Assembly: GCA_949751835.1 (NCBI GenBank)
Contig: CATKHK010000093.1
Span: 62,001-126,000 of the forward strand
Source: Blepharisma japonicum
Taxonomy: Eukaryota > Ciliophora > Heterotrichea > Heterotrichida > Blepharismidae
Length of the DNA stretch: 64,000 bases
Direction: 5' to 3'
The notes below the pieces were generated by a model that saw only the letters and a program-made list of their open reading frames with translations, did not search any database and was not told where the DNA came from. This document shows positions 1 to 48,371 of this stretch, in pieces; positions within the stretch are counted from its first letter, which is position 1; each line of letters begins with the position of its first letter. The position numbers were made by a program, and so were the translations under genes.

Positions 1-3000
1 TTTTCTTAAAATACCGAATATTGCTATAGATTTGACATTGAGTCCTTCCTGCAGTGTATTGCTGAAAAAAACTGCTGAAAATCTAAAATTTGTTATAATT
101 TCCCAGAAGAGAGAAATTGGTATAGTTAATGATTGAGAGTTTTTGATCCATATTTCAATTTCTGACAAAATAAGTGCATTAAACAATATTATTAATTATC
201 TAGGATGGGAGAAATTTATTGTGATACATGATGAAAATAATTACTATTTTTGTAGGAAATGAAAATCTGAATTTCCTACGAAAATAGTTAATTTTTTCCA
301 TTTTGCGAATAATGCAACTCAAGATTCAGCAGATTTATTTATTGGAAAAACAATAAAACCGATAGGGATTAGAAATTTTATTATTCTTAATAGTGGGAGT
401 AGTACACAAAAAATAATAAAAAGCTTAAAATCAAAAAATTTGTTGACTACTGGAAGTGGCGTCTTATTGGGAACTGAAATTTTAGAAAATATCAAAGCAG
501 ATGGAATTCTGGCTTTTACAGAGTCAGAGTTAGAAAATGCAACAGATTCTTATTCCTATGAGTTTTTAGCTATTCAAAAAATCATTAAAAACGTTTTGAG
601 CTTTCCTTCATACTATGACTCATTTTCATTAAGAGAATTTTTAGAAACAAATATGAAAAATCACAGCCAAATACCAAAATTCTCTTTTATTAACATTCAA
701 AATCAGCAAAAAATTTTGGTTGGAACTATTGAAAATGAAAATTTAAATTTAAACAAAAATGCTATCTGGCCTGGAAATTCTACAACAATACCTAACTCTC
801 CATATACAAATATAACTATTTCTTTAGACGATGGGGTGAATAATCCTAATGGGCAGCCTCCTAATGCATTTACAAGGAAAAGCAAAGAGGGTTCTATCTA
901 TTCTTTTATGTATATCAAAGAAATTCATTTTTTTGATAATTTCGAAATCTTAGTTACCCATACAGAATGCGGGGCTGATGTTTATAATGCTACTTATAAC
1001 TTAAACTGCTTTCGGCAATTAAAGGATCAACTTGGGGTAGGCTTCATAACATCCTCTCTAGGTTTATTAGTTGTTGGAAATATTATTTCTTTGAGAACTT
1101 TAAATATTTCTATTCCTCATATCTCAGATTATGCAATGTCCCATGCCCTTACTCCTAAAAATACTTTTCCTGAGTTTATGAGAGTAGCTAAAGATAGCGA
1201 GTTTAATGCTGCTGTAATTATTAAATTCTGTGCAATTTATGGGTGAAGCAACATCATTGCTATATATGAAAATAATGCAGGACCAACTTTTGCATATAAT
1301 CAACTTGAAAATCAAGCGAAACTACACAATATTAATATAGTGAATACCCCAGACCAAAGAAAGGTAAAGGCTGGATATCACCATACTGATTATGATAGTT
1401 ATAAGCCGTGAATGCAAAATTACATAAAGTCTAAAGTCAGAATTTATGTCGTCTTCATATCTAATCCGTCTCGACTTTATTTTTTTGAAGACTTATATGA
1501 TGCTGGAATTCGGCGTGGAAAAATTCTGTTTTTGTTCTATGACTGAGCTATGACTGGTTTTGACTATGAAACTGATCCAGTCCAAATGTACAAATTAAGA
1601 GAGCTGTTCTATGGATGTTTAATTATAACACAAGCTGAGTGGACTGGGGAATTTGGCCAAAAATTAAAGAAAAGCTTTATGGAAGCTATATCTTATGACA
1701 CACAATTTAGATGTTTTTCTTTTGACGCATCTATGCTTTTATTTCATGGAATAAGATATACGCTAGATCATGGAGGGAATTTAGAAAACTCGACCCTTCT
1801 TAATGCAAATATAAGAGCTCAAAAATTTGTGGGGTGTTCTGGGGTAATTTCTATTGACCCTGAAAGCAATGACAGAAGTTCAAATATTATGGGGATTTAT
1901 AATGTAATAGAAAATAAAACATCTGGAGCTATGTATGAGAATTTAGCGGGAAGGTATGATTTGGATAGTATTCAACTATTTACATTTTGAGATGAAATTA
2001 TATGATACGATAACACAACAAATGTTCCAACTGATATAATTAATTATGATGATTGTTCTTTTGATGATAATTTAGTCAAATATAATTTGAAAGGCGCTGG
2101 AATTTTATATGCAATTTCACTTAGCATTCTAATTACTGCCTCAACTATAATAGCAGTTAACTGGAAAATAAGATGAAATTTTCCATTTGACCAAATGACT
2201 GAAAAATCACTCATTCAGTTTGAAGACTACGTAGAAATGCTTATCATTATTATCGATTTTTTTCAATTTATTGCTGTAGGACCGGATATAAGTGAATATG
2301 ATGAATTTTCAAGTACTTTAGCTAGTTATGGAACTATGCATTTTGGGCCGGCAGCAAAAGGGCGTGCGTTTTGAATGTACGTTTACTCGTCATTTTTAGG
2401 GGTTTTAGCTAGTGTTTATTTTAGTGCTCACATTATTTTTAATCTTGGGAAATTCAACAATTGATTTTTCTCTTACAGCGAAACATTCGTTGAAAAGGCA
2501 CTACCTATACTTGGAAATATCGCTATTTTACCAATAATTTATATCCTTTTAAGTGTCATTCAATGCGACCAAGGAATAGGCTCAGATTTAACCCAATCCT
2601 TTCCACATAATGACTGCTCAGTATTTTGCTGAAAAGGAAACCACATTACATGGGCTGTATTAGCAGTTATTTCATTATTTATTTATTTACCACTTTCTCT
2701 TTATTCGAGGCATAAATGAGAGAATATAAGTAAACAAGCGAATATTCAAGTTCAGCCTCTCTTTTTATTGCTTAAAACACTATTTCAAGTCAGCATTATT
2801 ATTTCAAATAAAACTTTGAAAACTAACCATCAATCATTACATGGGCTTGTTTTTATTTTGCTATTATTGAGCTTTACAGGGATTTGCTATAAGAAAAAAC
2901 CTTACAATTATAATAGATGCAATCTTTGAGTTATAATATCTTATTTGGCTGTGCTATGAAGTGTATCCTTATCTACGATTTATTGACTTTTATCAAGTCG

Positions 3001-3316
3001 CTATGGTTCCATATGGCTGTTAATTCAATGGTTGGGATGGCTTACTCTTTTTGTTGTTGGGCTAATAATTCAGCAAAAATATTGTCCAGGATTACTATAT
3101 ACTGAAAAAGCACCTGATATTGGGCTATTATTCAGATTTTCATTGGGAAGGTCAGTAGCAGCTTGTGATATCATTAAAAGCAAAAGCGGTTATTTCAAAA
3201 GCATTAACGAAGCATCATCATGTGTTTTATCTGGAGAGCAAATTAAAGAAAAATTCCCAGAAGATATTAGCTGCACCCCTATGTCCGTAGATTATTTATC
3301 TTTGGAAAGAAAATAA
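1..3316 (+). CDS. Family A receptor A1: tandem PBP-type-1 ectodomain plus ~9 TM (5' end cut by window)
   Basis: The gene is open in a single frame from base 2 to a TAA at 3314-3316, giving about 1104 residues if TGA is read as Trp; the signal peptide and roughly 65 residues are missing at the window edge. The visible order is the end of PBP module I (to about base 780), PBP module II (about 790-2090) with the ANF-receptor-like closing motif G-C-S-G-V-I-S-I-D around 1833-1860, then about nine hydrophobic helices (about 2095-3090) and a tail containing FRFSLGR. It is very similar to its neighbour at 3447-6947. Expected location is the cell surface, sensing a small extracellular ligand; this is inferred from the fold, not shown. 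Compared with the neighbour it has a 12-base in-frame insertion at about 255-270, inside a near-perfect inverted repeat. No frameshift was seen. Confidence 0.85.
243..288. repeat. Near-perfect inverted repeat (18-bp arms, 10-bp loop) inside A1
   Basis: Bases 243-260 and 271-288 are reverse complements with one mismatch; the core arms are GTAGGAAAT and ATTTCCTAC. The paralog at 3447-6947 lacks 12 of these bases and has only a poor palindrome at the matching place (about 3879-3912). The pattern fits a template-switch event that copied one arm from the other, adding four residues in frame. Confidence 0.8.
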
Positions 3317-3367
3317 ATTTTTATTATGCACATAGAAATATTTATTAAATATTTATAAAACTAATTT

Positions 3368-8178: not shown

Positions 8179-11100
8179 ATGAATTTTGGCCTTATTTTTT
8201 ATTTTATTTTTCAATTTGTCCAATCTCAACTACTTGTGGATCTATATTATAGTGCTGACACAGATCTTGAGTTAAAGTCATATATACATGAAAAACTCAA
8301 TGAAAATTACCAAAATCAGCTAGAAGTAAGAGAAAGCCTGATAAACTCGGAGATTGATTTGAATCATTTTACAAAAAATCCAAATATTGTTGTAGATTTA
8401 ACTTTCAGTACTTCAATTTTAGCTTATATAAAAGAGTTTGTGGCTGAAAACCATATAATTTTGATTTTAATTCAAGACCTTCCGAGTTCTTATAATGATT
8501 GACAATTTTTTAGTCATTCCTCCAGGCAGGATCATGATAATGCTCTTAGTTATTTGGTCTCTTTCTTTAATTGAGATGAATTTTTAATAGTATCAAGCAC
8601 TTTAGATAAAAATTTTCACGATATAGCAGCTAAAAAATTCAATATATTTTATTTGTCAGAAACTAAAGATAATAATGAAGTTGATTTATTTGCTGGTAAA
8701 ATAATTAAACCAACAGGGATCAGGAATTTGGTAATTTTAAATCAAGGAGAAACTACTGATAGACTATTGCAAAGCCTTGTAAATAAAAGTATTATTAAAA
8801 GAGGAAGTGGGATTATTTTAGGAAGTAGAAGTAGTTGGAATACAAAATTAGATGGAGTGATTGGCTATTTTGAGTCAGGTTTAGAAAATGCTACTGATTA
8901 TTATAGCTATGAAGCTTTATCAATTGCAAAAATATTGAATTTGATACTTAGCTTTTCAGATTCTTCTAGCCCTTTAGCTCTCAGGAATTTTTTAGAAAGA
9001 AACACAGTCAATCATTATTTAACTGGAAATTTCAGTGTAATAAATATTCAAAATTCCCAAAAAGTCAATATTGGCAGCATTTCACAAGGCTTCTTAACAT
9101 TTTTCAGCAATCCAATATTTCCTGGAAATTCCTCAATAATTCCCAATTCCCCATATACAAACGTATCCCTATGAATGGGAGATGGACCTTCCAATCCTCT
9201 TGGGCTTCCTGATAGCACTTTCACTATAGTAAAAGACGGTGCAAAATACGCCTTTAAGGCCGCAGAAGACAGTCATTTTTTTGATGGTTTTAAAATTGTA
9301 TTTACCCATATAGACTGCGGTGCAGAAGTATATGAGCCGACATTTTCTCTAAATTGTTACAAAAAGCTAGTAAATGAGCCAGGATTTGTCTATATGTTAC
9401 ATCCATCGCCAATTGTAGCCTTAGGGGACATAATTTCAATGCGTAAATTAAATATCACAATGCCTATGGTGGCCGAACACGTAATACTTGGCACTCTTTC
9501 GAATAAAACAGAATACCCTTTATTTATGAAAATAGCTGGGAATAGTTTTTATAGATGCACTGTTTTGGCTGACCTATTAGTTATTTTTGGGTGGAAAAAC
9601 ACTAGTTACTTAGCTGTTGCCACTGGATAAAAGTGGAAAAGCCAAAGTCTTACAGTTTTACAAAGGACTAGCCAGATGTCTGACTTCCAGGTTGATTATG
9701 ACCTTACCTGAAGATAAAGCTTGCTCGTCTCATAATAAAAAAATATAGAGTGAGGACTGTTGATGAGCACATCAGTAGCATATAAAAACCGCGTTATTTG
9801 GTTGGAAAAATGTCATTCTAATAACAGAAAATTTAACAAGCAGCTTACAAACTTATCATCATCTAAAAGGGCGTATAGAAGCTGCGAATATCAATATTGT
9901 AAATAAACCTGAAGAGATGATGGTTATGGGAAATTATAATCACAATTATTTTAATCGTACAAAAGATTTAATGCTCAGCCTGCTAAAATACAAAACTCGG
10001 CCTATCATTTTGACAGTCACTCCTCCAGCTGTTTTTTATTTTATAGAAGACCTGTATAATGTAGGAATTAGGAGGGGAGATCTTATTATTATGATACCGA
10101 ATAGAATGGTGTTTGCATATACACTACTACCTATTAAGACTATGCTGAATAAAATGACAGAGCTTTTATATGGCGGAATTGTTATAAATGAAGCTGAGTG
10201 AATTGGAGAATTCGGTCAAAATCAGCTAAAGAACTTTCTAAAAGCTTACCCAAGTATAAACGTAGATTATCGGTGTTTTGCAATCGATGAAGCATGGCTA
10301 ATATTAAATGCGCTGAAATTTACAATTGAACAAGGAGGAGATATTTATGATCCTTGGGTATTTAACACCTACTTAAGACAGCAAAGGTTTTTAGGCTGCT
10401 CAGGGATAGTTTCTATTAATTCTCAGTCAAATGATAGGAATTCAGCGCCAATTGGGATTTATAGCATGAGATATGACAATGAACATGATATGCTATATGA
10501 ACAAATGATAGGGGCTTATGATCAAGGAAGTTTACAGCTGTTTACATTTTATGGAGAAATTAATTGGTATGATAATACAACAAATACACCTTCAGATATT
10601 ATAAAAAGTGAAAATGGCTGTCCATTCAAGGACAGTCAAATTGAGTACTCAACAAATGGCGCTGGAATTTTTTATGGGATTACTGTTGGGATTACAGTAA
10701 GTACGATGCTTATAACTTTTTATATATGAAAAAGGTGGTGAAACATAGAGATTCAAACAATAACTGAGCCAAGGCTAATTCAATTTGAAGATTACATAGC
10801 AATGCTTATCATTTTAGTAGATTTTTTGCAGTTTTTATCAGTTGGGCCAGATATAAAGAATTATGATATTTTTACTTATACACTCACTTATTTTGCTTCG
10901 ATTACTTTTATGACCGAAGACAAATATCTATGAATCCATTTATATTCTGCAATAGGTGGTGTTTGTGCGTGGCTTTTATTTGGGATAACTCATATTTTTC
11001 AGATTGGGGAAAATTCAAATAATAGCTTATTGAATTATTGAATAGCGCTATCAAAATTTTCATTGCCTGTTCTTGGCCATGCACTATTTTTACCACTTGT

Positions 11101-11821
11101 TTCAGTATTTATAAGTGTTATCCAGTGTGACCAACAAATTGGCTCAAAATTGACCGAAACTTTTGTGAGAAAAGATTGTAACACTTTTTGCTGAAAAAAT
11201 ATCCATATTTTATGGGCAACCCTCTCTATAATTTGCTTAATTCTGTATTTGCCTCTTGCAATTTATCTCAGGCCTTATTGGGATTTCTATGAAGAAAATA
11301 TCAATATAAAAACGCTGCCACTTTTTTTGATGGTAAAAAGTGTATTCCAATTAAGCATTATTGCTCTCAATAAAACAGTAAAACCACAAAGTCAAGCCCT
11401 TCATGGACTCTTTTACATTGTTTTATTGTGTGGTTTTCTATTTATTTGTATGAAAAAGAAGCCTTATAACGATAGTCGTATGAATCTTTGGCAAATCATC
11501 TCATATTTAGCCATTTTATGGAGTGTGGCTTTATCTTCTTTGTATTGAATAATTCCATGAAGATTAATGGAAGCTTGAATATTATCAGAATACTTAGGCT
11601 GAATTATTTTAATAATTATTGGGCTCTATATTCAGAAACATTATTGCCCAACTATGCTTTTTAATGAACCTGGGATAAATGTTGTAAAGCTGTTTAGGTT
11701 TTCACTAGGCAAATCTATAGAAGCTTCTGAAATCAATAAATACAACTTGCATTTAGTCAGTTCTAAAAGGTTTTTAGACATCAACAGCTCTTCACATCAA
11801 GTTATTATCGAAATGAATTAA
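8179..11821 (+). pseudogene. Family A member A3, interrupted at ~9600-9800 (broken gene, or gene holding an unexcised insert)
   Basis: ATG 8179 starts a good signal peptide (MNFGLIFYFIFQFVQSQ). One frame runs through PBP module I and into module II, then meets TAA at 9628-9630, giving 483 residues. Coding resumes in a different frame by about 9790 and stays open (TGA as Trp) to TAA 11819-11821, through the rest of module II, about nine helices and a tail with FRFSLGK. The motif F-G-W-K-N occurs on both sides of the break, at 9586-9600 and 9797-9811, 211 bp apart. The insert is not a multiple of three. Apart from this break the downstream part is well preserved, including GCSGIVSI and CPTMLF, so the damage is recent or is removed from the expressed copy. 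See the separate entry for the insert. Confidence 0.75.
9578..9784 (+). other. Interrupting segment in A3; candidate TA-bounded eliminated sequence or recombination scar
   Basis: Removing 205 bp between the TA at 9578-9579 and the TA at 9783-9784 restores one reading frame and gives exactly the spacing that paralogs have between the R-x-x-x motif and the W-K motif of module II. TA-bounded excision is how ciliate internal eliminated sequences behave. Against this, the left end of the segment itself reads as receptor sequence (V-I-F-G-W-K-N), and the decayed copy at about 7725 has the same continuation. A recombination junction between two paralogs is therefore equally possible. Confidence 0.4.
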
Positions 11822-14915: not shown

Positions 14916-17900
14916 CTAATTAATAGTGTGCCTATATTCTTCTTCCTTAATATCCATTCCATAATGCTCTATTGAGACCACTTCTTTTTCAGAAATCACT
15001 TCTTTTTCAGCGGCAGAGAATTTCACAGTTGTAAGATCAAATGAGCTTCTTTTAAGGAAATCTTGATCACTAGAATCAGAATACATCATATATTTTTTCC
15101 CCGTTTCTCTATTTATTTCTTCAGCAGCCATCTTATTTCCCAAGGCAAATCTAAAAATTACCCCAAGGTCAATTCCTTTTTCTGTATAGAGCAGGCTAGG
15201 GTAATATTGTTTTTGAATAAAAAATCCAAGTCAAAATAGTAAAATAATTCCAATATACTGAAAAATAAGCCAGAATATTATAAATTTGTGCGAGGATATT
15301 TGATATACCGACGATAATAATATACTTCATGAAGCAAATGAATAAAAAATAATCAGTCAAAGATTGCAACGATGATAGTTATATGGTTTCTGCCTTAAAC
15401 ATCATAAAATAAATAATGATAAAATAATACCTAAAATAAACCCATTTAAAGGTTGACTGTAAGGCTTTAGGGCTTTATTTAGGACTATTACGATTATTTG
15501 AAAAAATGATTTTGACATAGTGTGAAATGGTGAGGTCTTGATGTTGAGTTCTTTTTTATTTAAGTCATATAAATAAGGTCTGACGAAAATATCGAGCGGC
15601 AAATAGATAAATAAAGCAAGAATAGAAAGCACTGCCCAGATTGAATGTGAATTTTCTCAGCAAAAAGTGGTGCAATCATGCTTAATAAAGCTATTGCTTA
15701 AATCTTCTCCAATGCCATCAACACATTGAATGACACTTAGCAATATCGATATAATTGGTAAGAAACAGATGCTGCTAAAAATAGGCAGCAAAAGTTCAAA
15801 AATTACTGAATCAGGCAAAAATAGCCATTTTTTCCCACAATTTTTACAAATAACGCAAAAGCAGTAATAAATCCACACACAAATCGCTATCAGTGCTGAA
15901 TAAACATAAATTCAAAAATCTTCCTTTTTTCCAGATTCATCAAAATTTGCATTAGAATAATAAGCAAGAAATCTAAGAGGGGCATCAAGCTTATCCCTAT
16001 CAGGCCCCATTGCAATAAACTGTAGGCTCTCAATAATTATTACAGGCACAACAAAATAGTCCTCAAATTTCATAAGAAATCTTTCATCTATAATTTTAAC
16101 CTCAGAGTTGCCGTATGCTTTTCATATATAAAACCCAATCATAAATGTGGTCGTAATAAGTCCGAGGGAAACTCCATACAAAATTCCAGCACCTTTATAA
16201 GAGTATTTAACTAATTCCTCTTCAAAAGGGCAGTCTCCTGAAATTTGTATTAAACCATTGACACTTTCATAGAAAGTTAATAACTTTACTGATGCAAAAT
16301 TATATTGTCCTATTGAATACTGATAAAAATGCTCAGATGTGTCGTTTCATTTTATCTTAGAAATTCCTATTATGGCTTCTGATCTATCATTTTTTCCTGT
16401 CCCTATAGACACAATTCCAGAGCAGCCTATGAACTTTTGCTGTCTTAAATTTTTATTCAAAATAGTAGAATTTTCGAAATTTTGGCCGTGATTAATGGTA
16501 TATTTAATTCCATGAAATAAAAGCATTGCGGCATCAAATGAGAAACATCTAAACTCCAAATTATCATCACTATACTTTATAATAAACAGCCTAAGCAATT
16601 TTCCAAAGTTGCCTACTCATTCTTCTTGATTTATATTTAAAATACTATTCGCCAACGGAATTTTTGCTTTTTCACGGATAGCTGATATTTCGTACATAAT
16701 ATTGCTAAACATCATAAAAATCCCCTCTGAGCTTCTAAGCCCTGCATCATAAATTTTTTCAAGAAATTGCAGTTCTGACTGTGGCTTTAACAATAATATA
16801 TAAATTCGTTTTTTATAGCCTATAATATTTTTTATCAATTTCTCATAATCGCCACTCAGTGCTCTTTCATCATCTTTATTTACAATATTAATATTAGTAT
16901 TACTTATCAATAATAGGAAATATTGATAAGCTGACAGAGATTCATATGTTTTTTCATATACAAGAATAATATTTTTCCATTGGAGAGCTGCAATAAGGTT
17001 TATTATAACTTTCACATAAAAATTCCTATTTTTTACTACGCTCATAAACTCAGGATAAGCTTCTATGCTTGATAAAGAAGTCCCTGGGGCATACTCCGAT
17101 ATTTGAGGAATAGAGATATTTAAGCTCCTCAACGCTAAAATATTACTGATAACTGTCCTTGTATAGATTGAGGTTAAAAAACCGACCCCAAAATTTTCTA
17201 TTAAATTGCTTAAACAGTCATATGATTCAGGAGTTGTAAAATATTCAGCACCACAGTCAACATGAGTGGCCAAGATTTCAAAGCCATCAAAAAAATTGAT
17301 GGATTTTATATGAAGTAAAGCAATTTTTGCCCCTATTTTGGCGCTTGATGAAATATTACTGTGAGGGTAGCCAAAGTTTGTATCGCCATCTGCTATTGAG
17401 ATTGTTATATTTGTAAAGGGAAAATTTGGAATTGACTTGGCACAACATAGAACACTCATGATTCCATTGAAAATACTGCCTATAACATTTTTTTGATTGT
17501 TTTGTATATTTATAAGTGAATAGTCAGGAAGTGGATGATGGCCCACAGTAGCCTTTTCTAAAGCCTGGCGCAAATTGTCCATGTCATATATATTTTCAAA
17601 TTCCAGCACTAAATCAATGAATTTTTCAATAGCTAATAATTCGTACATATAGTTATTAGTTGAATTTTCCAGCCCTCTTTCTATATATGTCCAAATTCCA
17701 TTTTCTGTTATATTTCCTAAATTTTCACCTTTTAATATAACTCCACTTTCTAAGCCTAAAATATTTTTTTCTTTCAAACTTTTCAGCAGTTTTTGAGTCC
17801 CATTTTCTTGGTTTAGAATTATGATATTTCTGATACCTGTTGGCTTTATTTGTTTTTCTATCAATAAATTGGATATATCTTGGCTATCAGTGTCAATAAA

Positions 17901-32382: not shown

Positions 32383-35300
32383 TTATTTATTACTACTTTC
32401 TCCATTTTTTACCTCAATATCCAATTTATCAATTTTTTGAGATTTTTGGTTTCTCATTCTCGTCATTTCAAGAAAAAGTGATTTTTCCATAGCATTATGC
32501 CCAAGTGAAAACCTAAAAAACAAGCTGATATCAATTGTCTTTTCCCTATATAATAGACTTGGGTAAAATTTAATTTGAATTAAAACACCAACAATTATTA
32601 TCACAGTTCAGCCAAGATACTCAATAAAGATCCAAAGTAGTGTAAAATGATTCCCAGATATCAAATAGACTGAGGATACAGCCAAGCTCCATAAAACAGC
32701 AAAATGAGACACAGAGAGCCAAAGGTTGAATCTATGATAATTATATGGTTTTCTTTTTAAACAAAATATAGTAAAGCTTGAGAAAAAAATGATATAAATA
32801 AGCCCATGTAAAGGTGAATTTTCTGGCTTTAGAGTTTTGTTTAGAATTATGATCACGATTTGGCAAATACTCTTAAGCATCATATACCATGGTCTCGCCC
32901 GGACATTTATAGTGCTATTTTGGTTATCCCAATATGGCCTAAAATATACAGCCAGTGGAATGTAAATTAATAATGCTGTTATTGAAATACTTGCTCATAG
33001 TATATGTAAGCCTTTTCAGCAAAATACAGAACAGTCATTTCTTACAAAAGATTGGTCTAAGTCTTGACCTATTCCTTGGTCACATTGGAATACTCCTAAA
33101 AGGATAGAAATTATAGGCAAAAAGCAAGTGTTGCCTATAATTGGTAGTACGAAATTAGAAAAATTTTTGCAATAATCACACAAAAATTTATCAAACCTCT
33201 GAAAATTGATCAAAGTATGAATACTTAATAAAATCCACACAAGAAGCCCAATCAATATCACCTTTACACATATCCAAAACCTCACCCCTTTAGTTATCCA
33301 TGAATAATTAATTGTCGCATAATCAGCGAGCATGCTTGAAATTTCATCATAACCTTTAATATCAGGGCCCATGCCAATAAATTGCAAAAAATCAATCATA
33401 ATTATTCCCATGCTTATATAATCCTGAAAAAAAATTAGGTTTCTTTGTGTCATGTCTGGGATTTTTATATTTCAATACACTTTTCATATATAAAAAGTCA
33501 CAATAATTGAAATTATCAAAACGCTAAAAGATATGGCATAGAGAACGCCAGCTCCTATATCAGAATATTGGGCTTTATCTAAATCAAAAGGGCATTCAGG
33601 ATAATCGACAGTGTCTCCAGGTGCCATGGTTGAGTTATCGTAATAAATAATAGGGTCTCACAATGTAAATAATTGGGATTTTTCAAGGTCATATCTCCCG
33701 ACTCAGAACTCATATAAGATGTTTGAGCTTGAATTTCAGCGAATATTGTAAACCCCAACTACGCTTGTACTTCTATCATTTGTGTCAGATTGTATTGAAA
33801 CAGTTCCTGAGCAGCCTATAAATCTTTGATGTCGTAAATTGTAATTAAGAAGTGTCGAATTTTCAACATTTCCACCTTGATCAATAGTAAACCTGATCCC
33901 ATGCAAAAGAAGCATAGCGGCATCGAACGAAAAGCATCTGTAATCTGCAGGGTTTGAAAATGCTTTTAAGAAGCCTTGCTTTATTTGTTCTCCATAGTCT
34001 CCGACTCAATCAGCTTGAGTTATAACAATAGACCCATATAGCAATTCCGTTAATTTTTTTTTATCCTCATCAGGTTCTAATGTGTAAGAATATGTCACTT
34101 TGTCATATAGAATAAAAATCCCCTTACCTCTTTTTAATCCAGCATCATGTAGATTTTCTATAAAATAAAACTGGTTTGCTATAAAAATAACATAAATTCT
34201 CACATCAGTTTTTATATAGTTTTCCATTCATTGCTTATAGGTCGGATAATCTGAACGCAAATAATTAGATTTTACAGTCCTCTCATTAGGACTGTTTACA
34301 ATATTTATATGTGATTCTTTAGTTTTTGCCAAAATCTGGTTATAAGCATATATTGGGCCAGTGCTGTTTTCATATACAACAATTATATTTTTTCAACCAG
34401 TAATCATACAAAAATTTACTATTATAGTTGCGATATAACGGCTGTCCAATGCAACCCGAATAAATTCAGGAAAATTGGCTTTACTAGTAAGTGGCCCTGC
34501 AATTACCTTCTCAGAAAGGTGAGGAATCGTTATATTTAAAGCTCGAAAAGAAAGGATATTTCCAACAGCAAGTGGGGCATATATATTAGTCAGAAATCCT
34601 ACACCAAGCTTATCTTTTATACTCTTGAAGCAATTTATGCTAAAATTTGCATTGTAGATAGCTGCTCCACAGTCTGTATGTGTGACTGAGATATCAAATC
34701 CGTCAAAGAAGTGTGTACTTTTTATATACATCAAGGCATATAAAGCTCCATCCTTGATTAGCTTGCCATATAATGGACCATCTGGAAATCCAGGGTTTGC
34801 TATCCCATCTGCGATAGAGATTTTTACTTCTGTTGATGGATTGTTAGGGATTAAAGACAACCCATTAGGCCAAATAATACTGCTACTAAAATTTAATTTC
34901 CCATTAATTATGCTGCCAATGTTAGTTTGTTTTCCTTTTTGTATGTTAATTAATGTGAAATTAGAAGATGATCCACTTGAAAGATCTTTTAAATATTCAG
35001 ATTTATCATTGTATTTCAATATTTTGCCTAGAATTTTTACAATTGCAAAGGCTTCTTGCTCATATTCATTGCTAGCAATTTCTAACCCAGACTCTATATA
35101 AGCAAATAATCCATTTTCTGGAATACTCCTCAAATTTTGGTTTAGAAATAAAGCACCTTTTAGAAGATTTTTCTGCTTTAAGCTTTTTACAAGCTTTTCT
35201 GTACTTTCATCTTTATTTATGATAACAAAATTTTGAATTCCTGTAGATTTTAGGTATTTGCCAATAAATAAATTGGATAGCTCTTGAGTCCCATTTTTTG

Positions 35301-35775
35301 GGAAATAAAAGATTTTAATAGTCCTGTTATATGAGATAGATGAAATTTCGTCGATAAATTGGGTATGGTATTCATCAGAAATTATAATGAATTTTTGCCA
35401 GCCTAAATAAGAAATCAAGGTCTCAAATGCTTTGACGTGTTCCTTCATGGAATGATGCCAAGACACAATATTTTTTATTTTTTTTAATGGCTCTTGTGCT
35501 GAGAGGACGATAGATCCATTTTCAGCAGCATTTGCATATACTAAACTCTCTCCAGCAAGATTTATAATAATATCAGGTGCAGATTCATAATTTGATAGGC
35601 TAGATGATACTTCTTTTGTTCTTAGTATGACTTCCTGGTCTGAAAAGTTTTTCTTCAATGCAACTATTAGTGTTGATACCAAATTACCATCAATTGAAGA
35701 ATTGAATAAGATATAAACTAGAAGTTGGCATTTGATAAGGTAAAGAAGCCCGAAGAAAAAATATAAATTGTGCAT
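32383..35775 (-). CDS. Family A receptor A10: A7-subgroup tandem PBP-type-1 / ~9 TM protein
   Basis: The gene encodes 1130 residues from ATG 35775 to TAA 32383-32385. A TTG codon one position upstream is not needed as a start. The signal peptide is MHNLYFFFGLLYLIKCQ. Module I contains YLGWQKFIIISDEYHTQF and STGIQNFVIIN. Module II contains FDISVTHTDCGAAIY, FPEFIRVALDSRY, HDAGLKRGKG and GCSGTVSIQ. The membrane part contains DFLQFIGMGPDIK, the F-C-W-K-G-L-H-I loop and KRKPYNYHR, with FFRFSLGH in the tail. It is nearly the same as A11 and A7 along its whole length, and its 3' flank is compact. Many positions differ only by TGA versus TGG at Trp codons. Confidence 0.88.
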
Positions 35776-36239
35776 CAATATTTTAATAAAAATATCTAGG
35801 AAATTAAAAATTTAAATTTAATAAGTTTAATTAGAAGGAAAAGAAACCTATTCAATCAATATTGTACATTTTCTAAAATTATTGGATTTCTACGCCATCT
35901 TAAATTGTAGCTTTTCTCAGCTAAATTTAAAATTTAAGGATGCTTTTAAATTTATTATTCATTTTGTTAAATGTTTATATTGCCAAATTTTTGTTTATCT
36001 TTGTTTATTTAAAATGCTCGCTATCTTTATTTTTGGTTAAGCTGTCGTTTATTTTTGTTCTTTTATTGTGAGCTTAAAATAAAACTTTGTTTCATCAAAA
36101 ATATTAATTATAGGTCATATCCCAATCCAAGTTGCTATCTGAAAATTATAAGACAGCTCTTGTAAGAAATTGCATCAAATGGTAATATAAATTGAGCAAG
36201 ATTACTTTATTTTACTTGGCTTTATCTTTATAATACAGT

Positions 36240-36394: not shown

Positions 36395-39300
36395 TTATTT
36401 GTTACTACTTTCTCCATTTTTTACCTCAACACCCAATTTATCAATTTTTTGAGACTTTTGATTTCTCGTTCTCGTCATTTCAAGAAAAAGTGATTTTTCC
36501 ATAGCATTATGCCCCAGTGAAAACCTAAAAAACAAGCTGATATCAAGCGTTTTTTCCCTATATAGCAAACTTGGATAAAATTTAGATTGAATTAAAACGC
36601 CAACAATTATTATCACAATCCAGCCTAAATATTCAAGAAAGATCCAAAACAGCGTAAATTGATTCCCAGATACCAAAAAAACTGAGGAGACGACCAAGCT
36701 TCATAAAACAGCAAAATGAGACACATACAGCCAAAGGTTGAATCTATGATAATTATATGGTTTTCTTTTTAAACAAAATATAGTAAAGCTTGAGAAAAAA
36801 ATGATATAAATAAGCCCATGCAAAGGTGAATTTTCTGGTTTTAAAGTTTTGTTTAGAATTATGATGACAATTTGGCAAATACTCTTAAGCATCATATATC
36901 AAGGTCTTGCCCTGACATTTATAGTGCTATTTTGGTTATCTCAATATGGTCTAAAATATACAGCCAGTGGGATGTAAATTAATAATGCTGCTATTGAAAG
37001 ACTTGCTCATAGTATATGCAAGCCTTTTCAGCAAAATACAGAACAGTCATTCCTTACAAAAGATTGGTCTAAGTCTTGTCCAATCCCTTGGACACATTGG
37101 AATACTCCTAAAAGGATAGAAATTATAGGCAAAAAGCAAATGTTGCCAATAATTGGTAGAACGAAATTAGAAAAATTTTTGCAATAATCACAGAAAAATT
37201 TATCAAACCTCTGAAAATTGATCAAAGTATGAACACTCAATAAAATCCACACAAGAAGCCCAATCAATATCACCTTTACACATATCCAAAACCTCGCCCC
37301 TTTAGTTATCCATGAATAATTAATTGTCGCATAGTCAGCGAGCATGCTTGAAATTTCATCATAACCTTTAATATCAGGGCCCATGCCAATAAATTGCAAA
37401 AAATCAATCATAATTATTCCCATGCTTATATAATCCTGCAAAAAAATCAGGTTCCTTTGTGTCATGTCTGGGATTTTTATATTTCAATACACTTTTCATA
37501 TATAAAAAGTCACAATAACTGAAATTATCAAAACGCTGAAAGATATGGCATAGAGAATCCCAGCTCCTATATCAGAATATTGGATTATATCTAAATCAAA
37601 AGGGCACTCACTATAATCGACAGTGTCTCCTGGTGCCATGGTAGAGTTATTGTAATAAATAATAGGGTCTCACAGTGTAAACAATTGGGGTTTTTCAAGG
37701 TCATATCGCCCGACTCAGAACTCATATAAGATGTTTGAGCTTGAATTTCAGCGAATATTGTAAACCCCAACTAAGCTTGTACTTCTATCATTTGTGTCAG
37801 ATTCTATTGAAACGGTCCCTGAGCAGCCTAGAAATCTTTGATGTCGTAAATTGTAATTAAGAAGTGTTGAATTTTCAACATTTCCACCTTGATCAATAGT
37901 AAACCTGATCCCATGTAAAAGAAGCATAGCTGCATCGAATGAAAAGCATCTGTACTCTACAGGGTTTGAAAATACATTTACGAAGCCTTGCTTTATTTGT
38001 TCTCCATAGTCTCCGACTCATTCAGCTTGAGTTATAACAATAGACCCATATAACAATTCTGTTATTTTTTTCTTCACATCCTGATCAGGCTCTGATGATA
38101 AAGAATATGCCGTTTTTTCATATAAAATAAAAATAACTTTACCTCTTCTTAATCCAGCATCATGCAAATGTTCTATAAAATAAAACCCGCTTGGCATCAA
38201 AATAATATAAATTCTCACATTAGTTTTTATATAGTTTTCCAGTCATTGCTTGTAGGTCGAATAATCTGAACGCAAATAATTAGGCTTTACCGCTCTCTCA
38301 TTAGGACTATTAGCAATATTTATATGTGATTCTGTAGCTTTTGCCAAGATCTGGTTATAAGCGAGCATTGGACCAGTACTGTTTTCATATACAACGATTA
38401 TATTTTTTCAGCCTGAAATCATACAAAAATTTACTATTATTGTTGCGATATACCGACTGTCCTTTGCAACTCTAATAAATTCAGGAAAATTAGCTTTACT
38501 AGTAAGTGTCCCTGCAATCACCTTATCAGAAATGTGAGGAATCGTTATATTTAAAGCTCGAAAAGAAAGGATATTTCCAATAGCAAGCGGGGCGAGAAAA
38601 TTGGTTAGAAATCCTACCCCTAGCTTATCTTTTATACTCTTGAAGCAATTTATGCTAAAATTTGCATTATAGATAGTTGTCCCACAGTCTGTGTGGGTGG
38701 CTGAAATATCAAATCCATCAAAGAAGTGTGCACTTTTTATATACATCAAAGCATATAAAGCTCCATTCTTGATTAGCTTGCCTGCTAATGGACCATTTGG
38801 AGCTCCAGGGTTTGTTATCCCATCTGCGATTGAGATTTTTATTTCTGTTGAAGGATTGTTAGGGATTGAAGACGACCCATTCGGCCAAATAATACTGCTG
38901 CTGAAATTTAATTTCCCATTAATTACGCTGCCAACATTAGTTTGTTTTCCTTTTTGTATATTAATTAATGTGAAATTAGAAGTTGAAACATTCGAAAGGT
39001 CATTTAAATACTCGGATTTATCATTGTATTTCAATATTTTACTCAGAATTTTTACAATTGCAAAGGCTTCTTGCTCATATTCATTGCTAGCAATTTCTAA
39101 TCCCGACTCTATGTAAGCAAATAATCCATTTTCTGGAATATTTCTCAAATTTTGGTTTAGAAATAAAGCACCTTTTAGAAGATTTTTCTGTTTTAAGCTT
39201 TTTACGAGCTTTTCTACGCTCTTGTCTTTATTTATGAAAACAAAATTTTGGATTCCTGTGGATTTAAGATATTTGCCAATAAATAAATTGGATAGCTCTT

Positions 39301-39793
39301 GAGTTCCATTTTTTGGAAAATAAAAGACTTTAAATGTCCAATTATAAGAAATAGGTAAAATTTCGTCGATAAATTGGGTATGGTATTCATCGGAAATTAT
39401 AATGAATTTTTGCCAGCCTAAATAAGAAATCAAGGTCTCAAATGCTTTGACGTGCTCCTTTACGGAATGATGCCAAGACACAATATTTTTTAATTTTTTT
39501 AATGGCTCTTGTGCTGATAGGACGATAGATCCATTTTCAGCAGCATTTGCATATACTAGGCTCTCTCCAGCAAGATTTATAATAATATCAGGTGCTACGG
39601 ATTCGTAAATTGATAGGTTATTTGGTATTTCTTCTTTTCTTAGTGTAACTTCTTGGCCTGAGAATTTTTTTTCCAATGCAACTATTAGCGTTGATACCAA
39701 ATTACAATCAGTTGAAGAATTGAATAAGATATAAACTAAAAGTTGGCATTTCAGAAAGTAAATAAGTCCAAAGAAAAAATATAATTTTTTCAT
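36395..39793 (-). CDS. Family A receptor A11: A7-subgroup tandem PBP-type-1 / ~9 TM protein
   Basis: The gene encodes 1132 residues from ATG 39793 (MKKLYFFFGLIYFLKCQ signal peptide) to TAA 36395-36397, in one frame. Two codons further upstream are open but include no ATG. Module I carries LGWQKFIIISDEYHTQF and STGIQNFVFIN. Module II carries FDISATHTDCGTTIY, FPEFIRVAKDSRY, HDAGLRRGKV and GCSGTVSIE. The helices carry DFLQFIGMGPDIK, ICFLPIISILLG, the FCWKGLHI loop and KRKPYNYHR. The tail contains FFRFSLGH and a basic TRTRNQKSQK patch. It shares both coding sequence and 5' and 3' flanks with A10, which marks A10 and A11 as a recent tandem duplication. Confidence 0.88.
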
Positions 39794-40239
39794 TATCAAC
39801 CTTGGTATTAATATTTTAAGAGAAATATCTAAGAAACTAATGCTATAAGTTTAGTAAGTAGAAAAATAAACCTATTCAAGCAAATATTATATATTTTATA
39901 AAAAATTTATTTGGATTCCTCCCAATCTTAAATTATAGTTTTTCTCAACTATGGTAATTTTAAGATTAATTTATTAATTAATTTTACCAAATGCCTACAT
40001 TGTCGAGATTTTTATTTATCTTTTAATTATTTAAAATAAGCGCTATCTTTACATTTGGAAAAGCTGTCTTTTATCTTTGTGCTTTTAACTCTGAGTTTAA
40101 AATAAAATTTTTTTCCACCAAATATTATTTATAATCATATCCCAATCCAAATTGCTATCTAAAAGATTACATTAAATGGCAATATTAGAAATTATAAAAT
40201 GATATTAAATTGAGAAAATTTAATTTATTTTACTTGGCT

Positions 40240-40603: not shown

Positions 40604-43600
40604 TTATTTATTAATCATATTTCTAACAGAACTCACATTTCCAACTAGCAGACTGGACTGATTTAATTTTTCTTTATCTTTATTCATTTCAAGTGACATG
40701 AATAAATATTTTTTTTCCGCTTTTTCTTTATTCATACGATTGATATGATCAGCTGATATTCTTGAACTCAACGAAAATTTGAAGAACATAGCAATATCTG
40801 GAGGTTTTTCACTAAAAAGCAGATTTGGGCAGTATTTAAGCTGCAAAATTCTTCCAATTACTGCCATGCATATTCAGCCTCCATACTGAAGTCCTTGCCA
40901 AAATAAAGGATGATCATAGTCTACTTGCTTAAAAATTGAAGAAATTGCAATAGTCCATAACAGAGCTAAATAAGAAATAAATGACCACAGATTGCACTGA
41001 TGGTAATTATATGGCTGCTTTTTTAAGCAGAGCAACAAAAAGATAATAATAGCTATAATACAAATGAGCCCATATAAAGATGAGTTATGGATAACCAAGG
41101 TGTTCTTCAATATAATAATAATCATTTGAAAAATAGTTTTTGATATTATAAACAATGGTCTTGCTTTAATATTTGTGGAATTGTTTGAGATTTCGATACT
41201 CGGTCTACAATAAAGTACAGTAGGGAGATAGAATAAAAGCGAAATTGAAGAAAGGATAATAAAATTGATGTGAGAATCTTGCCAGCAGAATAATGAGCAA
41301 TCATTTTTCAGAAAACTTTGAGTAAGATCTGATCCAATACTTTCTGAGCAATTAAATTCATTAATAAGAACTGAAGTTATAGGTAAAAAACACAAATTAC
41401 CAATCAGCGGTAATAATAGTTCTGATATTTTTTTATAGTAATCAAAGCAGCATTGTTTGAATTTCCTATCAAATCGACATACTGTCTGTAGCAGCAAAAA
41501 CAGCCACAAAAAGGCTAATACTATCATAAAATAGAAATAAAACTCATAAGATGTCCCAAAAGATCTCCAATTTAACCTGAGCATGAAAATCTCAGAAATT
41601 GATGTAAAAATTGAGTCATAGTGAGAAAAATCAGGAGAAAGAGAAAGATTCTGAAGAAAATCTACAATAATCATTGCAAATTCAATATAGTCTCCTGAGT
41701 CAATTAGCTTGCGCTCTTTTAAATTTTCTATTTCAATGCCTTTAAGCTTTTTTCATGCATAAGAAACTGTGATGATCGTCACCAGCAAACATAAGCAGTC
41801 AACTGAATAAAGAATAGAAGCACTTTTGATAGAAAATTCAACATATTTCTCATTAAATGGGCATCCATTCGAGTATACTATTAGATCAGAAGGGATATTA
41901 GTAGTATTATCATATCATTGAATGTTATCAGAAAATGTGAATAGCTGCTTCCCTCCAATATCATAAACCCCCACTTGATTTTCATCTATCAGTTTTTCAG
42001 CTTTATTCCACCTCATATCATAAATACCTATAACACTAACACTTCTATCATTTGACGATCCATCAATAGAAACTATCCCTGAGCAGCCAGTAAATTTTTG
42101 GCTTCTCAAGTTTTTATTTAACACCCTTGGGTTTTCTACAAGTTGGCCTTGCTGAATTGTGTACTTTATTCCGCTGAACAATAGCATAGCTGCATCAAAT
42201 GATAGACACTTGAAATTAGGCGAAGAATGGTAAATACTTAAAAATTTTTCTTTGATTTCTGCGCCAAAAGTTCCAAGCCACTCAACTTGGTCAACTGCAA
42301 GTCCTCCATAAAAAAGCTCATTTAATTTTTTAAGCTGATCAGGGTCTTTTTCGTTCAATAACTGATATGCAGCTCTCTGGGGAGACAAAAAAATGGCATC
42401 GCCTCTTCTCAACCCTAAGTCATACAAATCCTCAATGAAATAAAAACAAGAAGGAGGGGTCAAGTTTATATAAAAAATCCTAACTCTTTTGTTTATAATG
42501 TTTTTCATTACTTGCTTATACTCAGAAAAGTCTGAGTGCCGATAGTTTGCTTTTATTATTCTTTCATTCGGAGGGTTCACTATATTTATTTTATATTTTG
42601 CTGTTTTTTCCAGCACGTACTCATATGTCATTATTCCTCCGGACTGATTTTCGTATAAAAATATCATATTAGACCATTGAAAAATGGCAAAAAACTTCAG
42701 CAGGACTTCAATATTATATCTAAATTCTTTTATAGTCCTCATAAACTCTGGATAAACTGTAGAGTTGCTTAAGGACATTGACTGGGAATATTCAGAAATG
42801 TGGGGAATTGTTACATTTAAACTTCTTAGTATCATTATACTTCCCACAGCGGTTAAAGGGAACGGAGAAGTTAAATAGCCAACACCAAGCTTGGTTCGCA
42901 GAACTTTAAAGCAAGCTATAGCATACGTTGAGTTAAAAACATCAGCACTACAATCAGTATGGGTAACTGACATTTCAAATCCTTCCAAAAAATTGTGATC
43001 TTTGATATAAGTAAGTGCATAAAGAGCACCTTCTTTTGTTTTATAAGTGCTATCAGAGTATCCTGGATTTGTGAGGCCGTCTGCTATAGATATAGGAATA
43101 TATGTAAAAGGAGAATTTGGCATTTTTGTAGTATTTCCAGGGAAAATTGGGGAAGATGTGATATTTAAAGAGCCATTTGAGAGGTTTCCAATAATTATTC
43201 TTCGATAATTCTGGATGTTTATTATCGAAAAATTTGGGACTGGACAATGATTAACTGTATTTTTCTCTAAAAAGTTATGTAAAGCCAGCTGGTCAGAATT
43301 CGAAGAAAAACCTAGAATAAGGCTAATAAATTTTGCATAGGCTAAAAACTCGTATGTGGAATAATCAATTGATTTTTCTAGTCCTGATTCTATAAACCCT
43401 ATAATCCCATCAGCTGTCATATTAGAGCTAAAACTACTACTTCCTAAAACTATCCCAGATCCTGCATTAAAAATATTTTTGGTTCTTAAACTGATTATAA
43501 TTTTTTTGGTATTTTCTCCTTGAGTAAGTAAAACAATGTTCCTAATTCCGGTAGGTTTAATCAATTTTCCTATAAATAAATCTGCAGAATTCTGATTTCC

Positions 43601-44098
43601 GCCACTAAGAAACGAATAGAATCCTGCAAGCTTATCAGAAAATTCAGTTTTCAATTTTTGGAGAGTTGATTCTTCTGTATTGTCATAAACTATAAGAAAC
43701 TTATCCCATTTTAGGTAAGAAATTATTTTTCTGACAGCTGTTACATGATCATCAATATGGTTATGAGTAAAAAAACGCCAATTATGGAAGCCTTGCTCTT
43801 GGTTTTTAGACGATAGTAAAATTGAATTGGCTTGCGTAGCAAATTCTTCAAGATATCTTGCTAATGAGAAGCTTGAAGTCAAGTCAATGATAAGTTTTAT
43901 GTTTCTTTTTAGAGCTAAAATATCAGATGCTCTGCTTATTTTAGTGGTTTTTAGCTCGATTTGGCTGGTAAAGGTATTTTTTAAAGCTACTGCTAAGGAT
44001 TGGGCTGATTTGATCTCAAGTGCTGAGCTATAAACTATTTCAATATATAACTGACAAGAAATAAAGTGAAGAAGAACGACAATGAAAAATTTCACCAT
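40604..44098 (-). CDS. Family A receptor A12: tandem PBP-type-1 / ~9 TM protein
   Basis: The gene encodes 1164 residues from ATG 44098 to TAA 40604-40606. It uses TGA sparingly, so its first 727 codons are open even under the standard code, which makes it the clearest view of the ectodomain. Signal peptide: MVKFFIVVLLHFISCQ. Module I (about 17-320) has LKWDKFLIVYDNTEES, PTGIRNIVLLTQ and NIQNYRRIIIGNL. Module II (about 325-730) has SVTHTDCSADVF, YPEFMRTIKEFRY, EDLYDLGLRRGDA and FTGCSGIVSIDG. Helix 2 has IIVDFLQNLSLSPDFS. The loop after helix 4 is FNCSESIG then FCWQDSHI, and KKQPYNYHQCNLW follows helix 7. This loop is the copy that most resembles the family B loop at 56917-56990. The tail has FKFSLSSR, a variant of the usual FRFSLGR. 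Confidence 0.9.
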
Positions 44099-44903: not shown

Positions 44904-47900
44904 CTAATTAGCTGAATTTTCACAGTTTTGGAATTTTATTTGAGAACGGTCAGAAAAACTAGAGTAGCTGTTACTTCTCATAGAAGACATGATATTTCTT
45001 TCAGTCTTTTCTTTATTTATTTGATTTATTTGGTCTGCTGATATATTTCTGCTTAATGAGAATCTGAAAAAAAGAGCAATATTTAGAGGATTCTCTGTAT
45101 ATAATAATCCAGGGCATTTTTTTTGTTGGATTAATACACCAGCAAATAATAAAAAAGCCCACCCCCCATATTGAAATAAAGCTCATTGCGGTTTGAACTC
45201 TTTATTGGTGAGCTGATATATTGAAGAGACCCCTACATTTCAAATAATAGCCATATATGTAATTATTAGCCAAAGATTACATCTGCTATAATTATATGGT
45301 CTTTCTTTCAGAAATATAAAACTGATAAAAGACATTATTAGCAAAATGTATATAAGTCCATATAATGATGGCTGATGGGCTAATAATATGTTGTTCAAAA
45401 CTATTATAATAGCCTGAAATACATGCTTTTCAAGTAAAAATGTTGGCCTCATCTGTACATTTGAGCTTTTAATTGAATAATCCCAAAATGGCTTTAAATT
45501 CATAGCTGTGGGCAAGTATAGAGAAAACATAATAATCGAAAGAACTACTAATCTGACGTGCAAGCCTTTCCAGCAAAATATAGTGCAATCTTCTTCAATG
45601 AAACTGTCTGTAATTTCAATTCCTATGCTTTGGTCGCATTGAAATGTCCCTAATAAAGTAAAAATAATTGGTACATAGCATATATTTCCAAGAAAAGGAA
45701 TTACTCATTCAGGTATCCTGTCATAAATATTCCAAAAAAAATTTTTAAATCTTCCTTGCCAATTTCACAAACTCGGGATGCTAAAAATAATCATAATAAA
45801 AGCTAATACCAAGCAGGTATAAAACTGTTCTAAAAATGAGATCTTAGGAGATTTTCAGTTTAATCGGAGCATAGAAAAATTCACCAATTTGTTTAAGTAC
45901 TTGCTATAGTCGCTAAAATCTGGTCCTAAGTATAGAAACTGAAGAAAATCAATGAAAATTATAAGATAAGCTAAATAATCGCCAAATTCAACTGGTCGTG
46001 GCTCGACTAGAGGTTCTAACTTTATATGGCATCAAAATTTTCTAATTATAGAAAGAGCAATAAAAATACTAATTAGGACACAAGAATCTACAGCGTAAAG
46101 GACTCTTGCTCCAATCATCGAGAATTCGATAAGTTTTGGGTTAAGGTCGCATGGATATGTGATTAAATCTTCTGGCACATTTGAGGAATTATCATACCAA
46201 ATAATATTGTCAGTAAAAGTGAACAATTGCTGACTGCTTAGATCATAAGTTCCTATTTGATAATCGAATAAAATATTTAGTTTTTTATTCCATCTGATGT
46301 TAAAAATCCCAACAACGCTTTTACTTCTATCATTTGAATCCTTGTCTATAGAGATAGTTCCTGAACACCCTAAAAATCTTTGGAGTCTCAAATTCGCATT
46401 CATTGTTGTAAAATCTTCAATATTTCCTCCTTGGGCTATTGTATACTTAATCCCATTTAACAGAAGTGTAGCAGAATCAAATGAAAAGCAGCGATAATCT
46501 GTAAATTCAGAAAATGCCTTAATAAAACCTGATTTTATTTTTTTGCCATAAGACCCAACTCATTCTGCTTGATCCATCGTAACTGTTCCATAGAATAATT
46601 CCTTTAGTTTATGTAACTCTAAAGGATCGGTTTCATAGAAAAAAGCATTACTTGGCCTATTATATAAAATAAAGATCACATCTCCTCTTCTAAATCCTGA
46701 ATTATATAAATCTTCGACAAAATACAATTGAGAAGGAGGCAGAATTAACAGAAAAATAACCCTTACCCTTAACTTCAAAAACTCTTCCATTCATTGTTTA
46801 TATGTAGAATAATCACTATGATTATAATTTGGCTTTATTTTTCTTCTATCAATAGAATTCGCGATTTCTATGTCAGTATTATTAATGCTTGATAAGAGAA
46901 ATTTGTAGGAGGAGAGATGCCCTGGGAGGTCATCGTATAAAATAAGAAATCTTTTCCACTGAAAAATTTTAAAAAGATTCAAAATGCCTACAGCGTTATA
47001 TCGGTTATCTTTGGTCACCCTCATAAATTCAGGAAAATTTTGTTTACTTGCTAGAGTTTCTCCAGTTGCGTATTCAGAAATTTGAGGAATTGAAAGATTT
47101 AAAGCTCGCAGTGAAATAATATTTCCCATTGAAGTAGATGTGTAAGGAGATGTTAAAAGGCCAACTCCGAGCTCATTCTTTAGTTTGCTAAAGCAACTAA
47201 GAGAAAATTTAGGATTATAAACTTCAGCCCCACAGTCAACATGGGTCACCAAAATTTCAAAGCCATCTATAAAATTATCTCTTTCTGCACACATTAATGC
47301 ATATTTCGCTCCTTCTTTAAACTTATCTGAGTATAAGCTATTAGGATATCCTGGATTTGTGATACCATCTGACATAGAAATTGTTAAATTTGTATAAGGT
47401 GAATTTGGGATTAAAGAAGAATTCCCAATAAAAACTGGAGCCTCAAGAATAACTAATTGTTGCTCCAAAATATATCCAACTTTTACTTTTTCACTATTCT
47501 TGATGTTTAAAACTGTAAAATTTGACTTTGGTTGATGATTTATTGTACTTTTTTCTAAATAATTTTTTATATCTAAGGTATTTGAGCACTGATTGCAGCT
47601 CAGCACATGATTTATCATTTTTTCAACCCCCAAAACTTCATAGCCGTAACAATCTGTTGCGTTTTCTAGCCCACTTTCAACAAGTCCAAATAGACCATTT
47701 TCTGTTGCATTTTGTCAACTTCTACTTCCGAGTATAACACCAGTTCCCAATTTAAGTAGACTTGCATCTGCTATACTTTTTACAAGAAAAGCAGCTGATT
47801 CCCCTTTATTCAAAATAACAATATTTTTGATTCCAGTAGGCTTAATTTCTTTTTTAATCAGAATTTCAGCTGATTTTTGATCTCCATCATTTGGAAAAAA

Positions 47901-48371
47901 AAATATTCTAATATTGCTACTTGGGAAATTTTGGTTAAGAATTGAAAAATTGGAATCAGTAATAAAAATTATTCTGTCTCAATCTAGATAAGATAAGATA
48001 GTTGAAAGTGCATAAATTCAGGCTTCCTCCGATATATTAATGAAGAATTCTCAGTCGTTAAAAGAGGGAGATGGCTCTTGTATAGAAAAAAGTATTATTT
48101 CATTTTGAGAAGCATATTGCTTTATCGAACTAGAAAAAGACAAAGTAAAGGTCAAATCTATTACAATTTGGGGCATTTGTTCTGAATCAAGAACGCTTGA
48201 TTCTAAGCTTAAATTAGTAAGCTTAGCTTCAACTTGGCTCATAAATTTTTGTTGAAGTGAATCTGAGATTGATAATACCAATAATATATCCGTATAAGAG
48301 CTATAAAATATTTCAATGTATATCTGGCAATAGACAAAGCTTGCGAAAATGAAATATTTAATGGTTTTCAT
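44904..48371 (-). CDS. Family A receptor A13: tandem PBP-type-1 / ~9 TM protein
   Basis: The gene encodes 1155 residues from ATG 48371 to TAG 44904-44906. I followed the frame across the unassigned stretches 47634-48050, most of 45564-46031 and 44904-45239 and found only TGA. Signal peptide: MKTIKYFIFASFVYCQ. Module I carries IDLTFTLSFSSSI and PTGIKNIVILN. Module II carries FEILVTHVDCGAEVY, FPEFMRVTKDNRY, EDLYNSGFRRGDV and FLGCSGTISID. The helices include DFLQFLYLGPDFS, the FQCDQSIG...FCWKGLH loop and KERPYNYSRCNLW. The tail includes FFRFSLSRN and a Ser-rich end. It is the sister of A8 (24673-28077) although three A7-type and other genes separate them. It is the last intact gene of the array. 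Confidence 0.87.

Follow-up and report, generated by a model that had tools for sequence, protein, structure and literature searches.

A tandem gene array in Blepharisma japonicum joining two PBP type-1 modules to a nine-helix membrane core: a candidate chemoreceptor family

What kind of receptor carries two successive periplasmic binding protein (PBP) type-1 modules and about nine membrane helices in a single chain? The question is raised by a gene array in the ciliate Blepharisma japonicum. It lies in a stretch of 64,000 nucleotides (hereafter, the window), positions 62001-126000 of contig CATKHK010000093.1 (C93) in assembly GCA_949751835.1, and the genome searched comprised 45.2 Mb on 224 contigs. 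A first-pass annotation, made from the letters of the window alone, had counted eleven paralogs at window positions 1-48371; the reading frames gave eleven paralogs of approximately 1130-1180 amino acids each, and a search with the membrane core found 11 core loci in the window. We propose, with a confidence just short of even, that these paralogs and their relatives elsewhere in the genome (the A family) are a lineage-expanded family of plasma-membrane chemoreceptors, possibly ligand-gated Ca/cation channels.

Two binding modules and a nine-helix core in one chain

Gene A12 was used as the reference sequence, and its parts are listed below. ATD denotes the amino-terminal domain of ionotropic glutamate receptors (iGluRs).

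43121..44098, minus strand: leader and module I of A12; PF01094 at 28.5 bits (cut-off 25.4); NMDA-receptor-ATD-like in divergent relatives
41969..43120 (limits approximate), minus strand: module II of A12; PF01094 at 1e-21 for the whole protein; T1R/mGluR/GLR-like
40838..41830 (limits set by hand), minus strand: membrane core of A12, from hydropathy, alignments and loop charges

Whole proteins matched PF01094 (ANF_receptor) over the curated cut-off in all eight window members scanned (A1, A2, A6-A9, A12 and A13; E 9e-26 to 9e-12), A1 being scanned without its N-terminus. The same was true of all eight divergent relatives. Module II was the best-matching stretch, and Peripla_BP_6 was also matched in divergent members. 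Module I alone matched PF01094 in eight of ten sequences, five of them over the curated cut-off: the four divergent relatives scanned (L001, 2.1e-17; L002, 2.7e-15; L003, 4e-13; L006, 7e-12) and, among the six window genes scanned, A12 only (1e-6). Matches below the cut-off were obtained for A2 (3.6e-4), A13 (1.4e-3) and A6 (0.14). The first-pass annotation had read two PBP type-1 modules in cis from a strand pattern at the end of each; the pattern was seen in alignments of both modules, module II is clear, and module I is borne out by PF01094 in A12 and in 4/4 divergent relatives.

Searches against PDB sequences gave each module its own nearest neighbours. A module I profile built from the four divergent relatives found NMDA receptor ATDs (GluN1/GluN2B) as its best match, at 1.3e-5. 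The profile of window module II matched the taste receptor T1R1 at 3e-8, in addition to metabotropic glutamate receptors (mGluRs), and module II of L001 matched the plant receptor GLR3.4 (7.8e-18), T1R (8e-11), GABA-B1 (7e-10) and a bacterial binding protein (2.3e-9). A module II model built here also matched module I in three of the eight divergent full-length members (L001, 3e-10; L002, 7e-8; L003, 2e-5), and the likeness between the two modules was weak when window members were compared alone (P 0.008). In mGluR1, residues of the cleft contact amino acids. The cleft loops of module II in L001 and L002 are class C-like, with SYGAT and R-T-I-Q-P-D segments that align with stretches of T1R3 and GABA-B1. 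In the window paralogs the cleft loops are changed and variable, and the scaffold GCSG-x-[IV]-S-I...N-[DQ]-R-S is conserved. Such variation on a kept scaffold fits receptors that are tuned to a multitude of cues.

Hydropathy averaged over 38 A cores showed nine separate peaks, in agreement with the earlier count of about nine helices, unlike the seven or one of familiar receptors. Taken one at a time, with a Kyte-Doolittle threshold of 1.3 and the core counted by eye, A1, A7 and A13 each gave nine peaks, A6 eight and A12 seven. Lysine and arginine made up 18.9% of the inside loops versus 7.8% of the outside loops over ten paralogs (helix limits set by hand), and this alternation of charge fits nine helices with the N-terminus outside and the C-terminus inside. 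The loop joining helices 4 and 5, which is outside in that topology, is long and contains three cysteines present in every one of 23 aligned cores; the loop between helices 7 and 8 is short and strongly positive. A FRFSLGR tail had been ascribed to the whole array. The exact FRFSLG-type tail was present in seven members (seven exact DNA matches versus 0.02 expected), whereas the other four carry the variants RFALG, KFEFG, KFSLS and RFSLS. In a Pfam scan of 23 A cores, no family claimed the core.

The array and the genome-wide family

Long open reading frames in the window require a code with TGA as Trp, and translation table 11 breaks the frames. The same use of UGA is documented for Blepharisma stoltei (PMC9942806). 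Read in this way, the eleven members are as follows.

2..3316, plus strand: A1, family member; N-terminus and leader lie left of the window, start read from locus L061
3417..6947, plus strand: A2, family member; close pair of A1 (dN/dS, the ratio of nonsynonymous to synonymous substitution rates, 0.25)
8179..11821, plus strand: A3/A4, single family member in two frames, split by a stop-containing insert
14916..18446, minus strand: A6, family member
20543..23956, minus strand: A7, family member
24673..28077, minus strand: A8, family member
28639..32076, minus strand: A9, family member
32383..35778, minus strand: A10, family member
36395..39799, minus strand: A11, family member
40604..44098, minus strand: A12, family member and reference sequence
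44904..48371, minus strand: A13, family member

In 11/11 members a hydrophobic leader precedes [SC]-Q (by eye, with no predictor; that of A1 was read from L061), as expected from the signal peptide that had been noted on each paralog. Overall dN/dS was 0.15-0.27 in all five paralog pairs tested, indicating that the tested copies are under constraint. In the three pairs among A7, A10 and A11, dN/dS was lowest in the core (0.09-0.14, versus 0.17-0.30 in the ectodomain), a pattern that was not seen in the A1/A2 or A8/A13 pairs.

The first half of A3/A4 comprises module I, and the second half comprises the remaining module II and the membrane core. Its insert (9586-9810) has stops and lies between the imperfect repeats TTTGGGTGGAAAAA (at 9586) and TTTGGTTGGAAAAA (at 9797); it may be germline-limited DNA that was retained, or the scar of a local duplication. 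Inside the array lies one non-member, A5 (12933-14729, minus strand), which encodes a Kelch-repeat protein (Kelch_1, 1.5e-11) with a Cys/His-rich start.

Merged core searches with A12, L001 and L007, together with ten places from the L004 list, gave at least 179 distinct A-core loci on 50 contigs, and C93 alone, a contig of 164 kb, carries at least 27 cores. These counts are lower bounds, as about 100 of the 250-268 candidates were scored in each search; moreover, some of the places are incomplete or contain stops. The merge took 99/99 places of one core list, 100 listed places from each of two more, and 10 of the 103 places of the L004 list, which were judged likely to be new. For PF01094, 101 of 106 places were taken, and the five excluded were second or partial stretches near listed ones. 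Another 29 PF01094 places lacked a core among those listed. Within the resulting 208 loci (179 cores and 29 PF01094 places), 161 lie within 10 kb of another. The first-pass annotation had likened the size and divergence of the array to chemosensory gene families and had called for a count of members across the genome; the count of at least 179 core loci, often in tandem, upholds that comparison.

Module II lay directly upstream of the core in 30/30 loci picked by the core alone (L039-L068, eight of which are window genes), and in 28 of them it was in the same frame. In L046 and L068, both outside the window, module II is in a different frame from the core, suggesting a frameshift, an intron or an assembly error between the two. 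A 30-base pattern for the motif at helices 7-8 had 47 matches in the genome, 44 of them inside listed cores (by eye), and its backward control had none. Among the places listed, contigs C126, C129, C17, C105 and C127 hold 22 PF01094 places without a core, which may represent a further divergent subfamily or another architecture.

Relatives of the membrane core and the rival readings

The array is adjoined by genes of another kind, which are not members of the family.

50540..57985, plus strand: B1, Lin-12/Notch repeats (LNR), beta-helix-like repeats and a multi-helix core; non-member
56312..57559, plus strand: membrane core of B1 (P0001), used for comparison

The Notch-type LNR match of B1 was 5.7e-18, and its beta-helix-like repeats were recognized by eye. 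B2 (59976-64000, plus strand) likewise has LNR/Notch repeats and, by eye, beta-helix-like repeats. A genome-wide search with the B1 core gave 98 matches, about 70-75 of them long and many in tandem. All 14 B core sequences scanned contain a Cys motif that weakly matches DUF7630. Module II was found at none of 30 B loci: these proteins resemble the A family in core profile and motifs and differ in having an LNR/beta-helix ectodomain instead of PBP modules.

Comparison of a profile of 38 A cores with one of 30 B cores gave a score of 48.6, with P 1.6e-5 and a probability of 79% (L046, whose frame has a stop, was kept out of the core profile). Reversed profiles scored 21.3 and 17.1, and 100 block shuffles had a mean of 24.5 and a maximum of 37.6, all below 48.6. 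The P value dropped as diversity rose, from 0.044 for the A profile against the B1 core alone to 1.9e-4 and then 1.6e-5, and the eight divergent A members alone aligned with B over 249 columns covering helices 2-8 (P 5e-5). The global mode of hhalign gave no useful alignment. Two motifs occur in register in L001 and B1: C-x(17)-C-W-x3-H, in the loop joining helices 4 and 5, and P-[FY]-N-x4-N-x2-E-L, in the loop joining helices 7 and 8. Distant homology of the A core and the LNR/beta-helix core within one superfamily is supported by these profile and motif comparisons.

A genome search with the TRP-like (transient receptor potential-like) family PF06011 gave 35 places at E up to 10, of which 19 were on B-core loci, mostly at model positions 271-420; the best of these (E 1.6e-6) was over the curated cut-off. 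PF06011 was thus found on 19 of 76 listed B-core loci versus 0 of 179 A-core loci (Fisher 1.7e-11, a guide only, because the zero comes from a by-eye comparison and tandem copies are not independent). This comparison took 76 of the 98 B1-core places, fragments being left out, and 35/35 PF06011 places. Given these proportions, composition bias seems unlikely as the sole cause of the matches. That the B cores belong with PF06011 is suggestive only, and direct membership of the A core in PF06011 was rejected, there being no match on the listed A-core loci. The A core is related to the B core and the B core perhaps to PF06011, which points to a channel over a GPCR-like (G protein-coupled receptor-like) protein, with the last step being weak. 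Clusters on C139 and C110 at or near the PF06011 cut-off are at loci other than B cores and are probably other TRP-like genes.

We take Schizosaccharomyces pombe Pkd2 to be itself a PF06011 protein. Fungal proteins of this family include Flc1 (PMC9600462). A table in the review PMC12028594 groups Pkd2 and Flc1-3 in a single family, and Pkd2 reconstituted in vesicles is reported there to pass Ca when stretched. The likeness of the A family to the fungal Flc proteins is thus a distant relationship of cores by way of the LNR/beta-helix proteins, weak at its second step. Most fungal homologues have an ML-type domain (PMC9600462), whereas the A family has PBP modules.

Several results weigh against a chemoreceptor built on a channel-like core. 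For the ectodomain, module I of A9 and A11 had no PF01094 match (two of the six window genes scanned), and the cleft loops of the window members are unlike those of the divergent members. For the A-B relationship, the probability of 79% is under the 95% usual for profiles, the four L001-type cores alone were weak against B (P 0.012), and the window members fall short of two motif details, A12 having three additional residues in its cysteine spacing and lacking the Glu of the second motif. The averaged B core profile has eight peaks, one of them wide; we read it as nine helices by taking the wide peak as two. PDB sequence searches with the A and B core profiles gave chance-level matches only. 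For PF06011, one of the 19 places on B cores was over the curated cut-off and two were below E 0.001. None of the 35 places fell on listed A-core loci (by eye), and the family was absent among the matches of 23 A cores. PF06011 was absent from the hmmscan results for 14 B cores, including the one with the best PF06011 place (L031), and from those of the B1 scan; as hmmscan applies a bias filter, its result for the 14 cores counts against a bias-free reading.

The main rival to the channel is a metabotropic mechanism, in which the core would resemble a diverged class C GPCR that has two more helices and would signal to effectors, whether a G protein or not, without passing ions; we regard it as possible, if doubtful. 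Its appeal lies in an ectodomain of class C/ANF type, and the positive, short helix 7-8 loop and the FRFSLGR-type tail could bind an effector. Module II aligns to T1R1, T1R2, T1R3, mGluR3 and GABA-B1, so that the likeness to class C GPCRs (mGluR, GABA-B, T1R, CaSR) is in the extracellular ANF_receptor module. However, the A family has two modules in cis rather than one, it has nine helices, and 7tm_3 was not found in Pfam scans of the window members, the divergent members or the 23 cores. The profile score of the A core against the genome's 7tm_3-like proteins was 16.2, which is null level, and the A core aligns with the B core instead. Membership in class C with extra helices was rejected on these grounds. 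A genome search with 7tm_3 itself gave three places (L069-L071), one of them over the cut-off, and no PBP module was found in the flanking DNA examined. Their frames (431-433 amino acids) are 7tm-like in the N-terminal part; the C-terminal part is long and, by eye, looks RGS-like. The ciliate Glutamate Receptors of a survey of non-animals were selected by 7tm_3 (PMC12716839); with that domain as bait, the A family would be missed.

Two other known layouts were compared. iGluRs and plant GLRs share the PBP type-1 ATD, the module I profile of four divergent members being near GluN1/GluN2B and L001 module II near GLR3.4. The membrane part of iGluRs consists of three helices and a re-entrant loop, whereas the A family has nine helices and, in 16 members scanned with Pfam, no match to a type-2 PBP ligand/channel domain. 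Receptor guanylyl cyclases of the natriuretic-peptide type share the ANF_receptor ectodomain and have one helix and a cyclase domain. A receptor cyclase was rejected: the cyclase family PF00211 was absent from Pfam scans of the 16 members, and a by-eye comparison of the genome lists showed no PF00211 place closer than 45 kb to one of PF01094. Of PF00211 the genome has 87 places, often paired at a spacing of about 1.5 kb (by eye), and the pairs are probably many two-domain cyclases. The first-pass annotation was right that the layout departs from class C GPCRs and guanylyl-cyclase receptors. Its further claim of a separate receptor class stands in part: the layout is unlike that of GPCRs, iGluRs or cyclases, but the core is not an orphan, having distant relatives in the B cores.

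A scavenging or endocytic receptor, or a transporter, is an unlikely account; here the modules would capture nutrients and the core would move them or pass them to uptake, as bacterial PBPs do for ABC transporters. PBP folds bind nutrients in bacteria, Peripla_BP_6 is matched, and Flc1 is called a flavin carrier in PMC9600462. However, at least 179 divergent core loci fit the recognition of many cues better than uptake, and module II of L001 is closer to the eukaryotic signalling receptors GLR3.4, T1R and GABA-B1 than to a bacterial binding protein, by a small margin in the case of T1R and GABA-B1. NMDA-receptor ATDs bind modulators. A mechanical or adhesion role, of the kind that the LNR/beta-helix neighbours may have, with the ectodomain as tether, the core as stretch-gated channel and the PBP modules binding protein partners, would accord with the ATD-like module I, the core's relation to B cores and weakly to PF06011, and the stretch activation of Pkd2 (PMC12028594), but we consider it quite improbable, as module II of L001 and L002 keeps class C-like cleft loops and the window cleft loops vary on a kept scaffold.

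Proposed mechanism and meaning for the ciliate

If the A family is a set of ligand-gated channels, module II would close on a small ligand, which for the divergent members would resemble an amino acid, and module I would be a further clamp that either binds or regulates; together the two may function as a dimer in cis. The closing of module II would be transmitted through the short linker as a pull on helix 1, and Ca/cation conductance would be gated via an assembly of cores. Such a conductance would steer ciliary beating or mating behaviour, and tandem duplication with divergence of the cleft loops would yield many specificities. The gamone of Blepharisma is small and Trp-derived, and some members could read mating pheromones of this kind. 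A bolder version is possible, though less likely than not: a new class of ligand-gated channel with tandem PBP clamps on a TRP-like nine-helix core, with approximately 200 genes forming a main chemosensory repertoire of this heterotrich and an in-cis pair doing the job of a receptor dimer.

Our searches of the open-licence literature gave no account of two ANF modules in tandem on a core of nine helices, and the word 'receptor' is absent from the main text of PMC9942806. The parts are known; their combination, the relationship of the core and the scale appear to be undescribed in that literature. The textbook examples of a PBP clamp wired to the membrane are class C receptors and iGluRs. The A family has two clamps per chain and a different core, and its scale, within one cell, is like that of the odorant repertoires of animals. 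Should the core conduct, the joining of PBP clamps to a TRP-like channel would have happened independently of iGluRs, it would become possible to test in a chain with its own pair whether clamp receptors need dimer contact, and there would be a receptor set for testing chemotaxis and mating in ciliates. This ciliate may sense chemicals via a kind of receptor without prior description.

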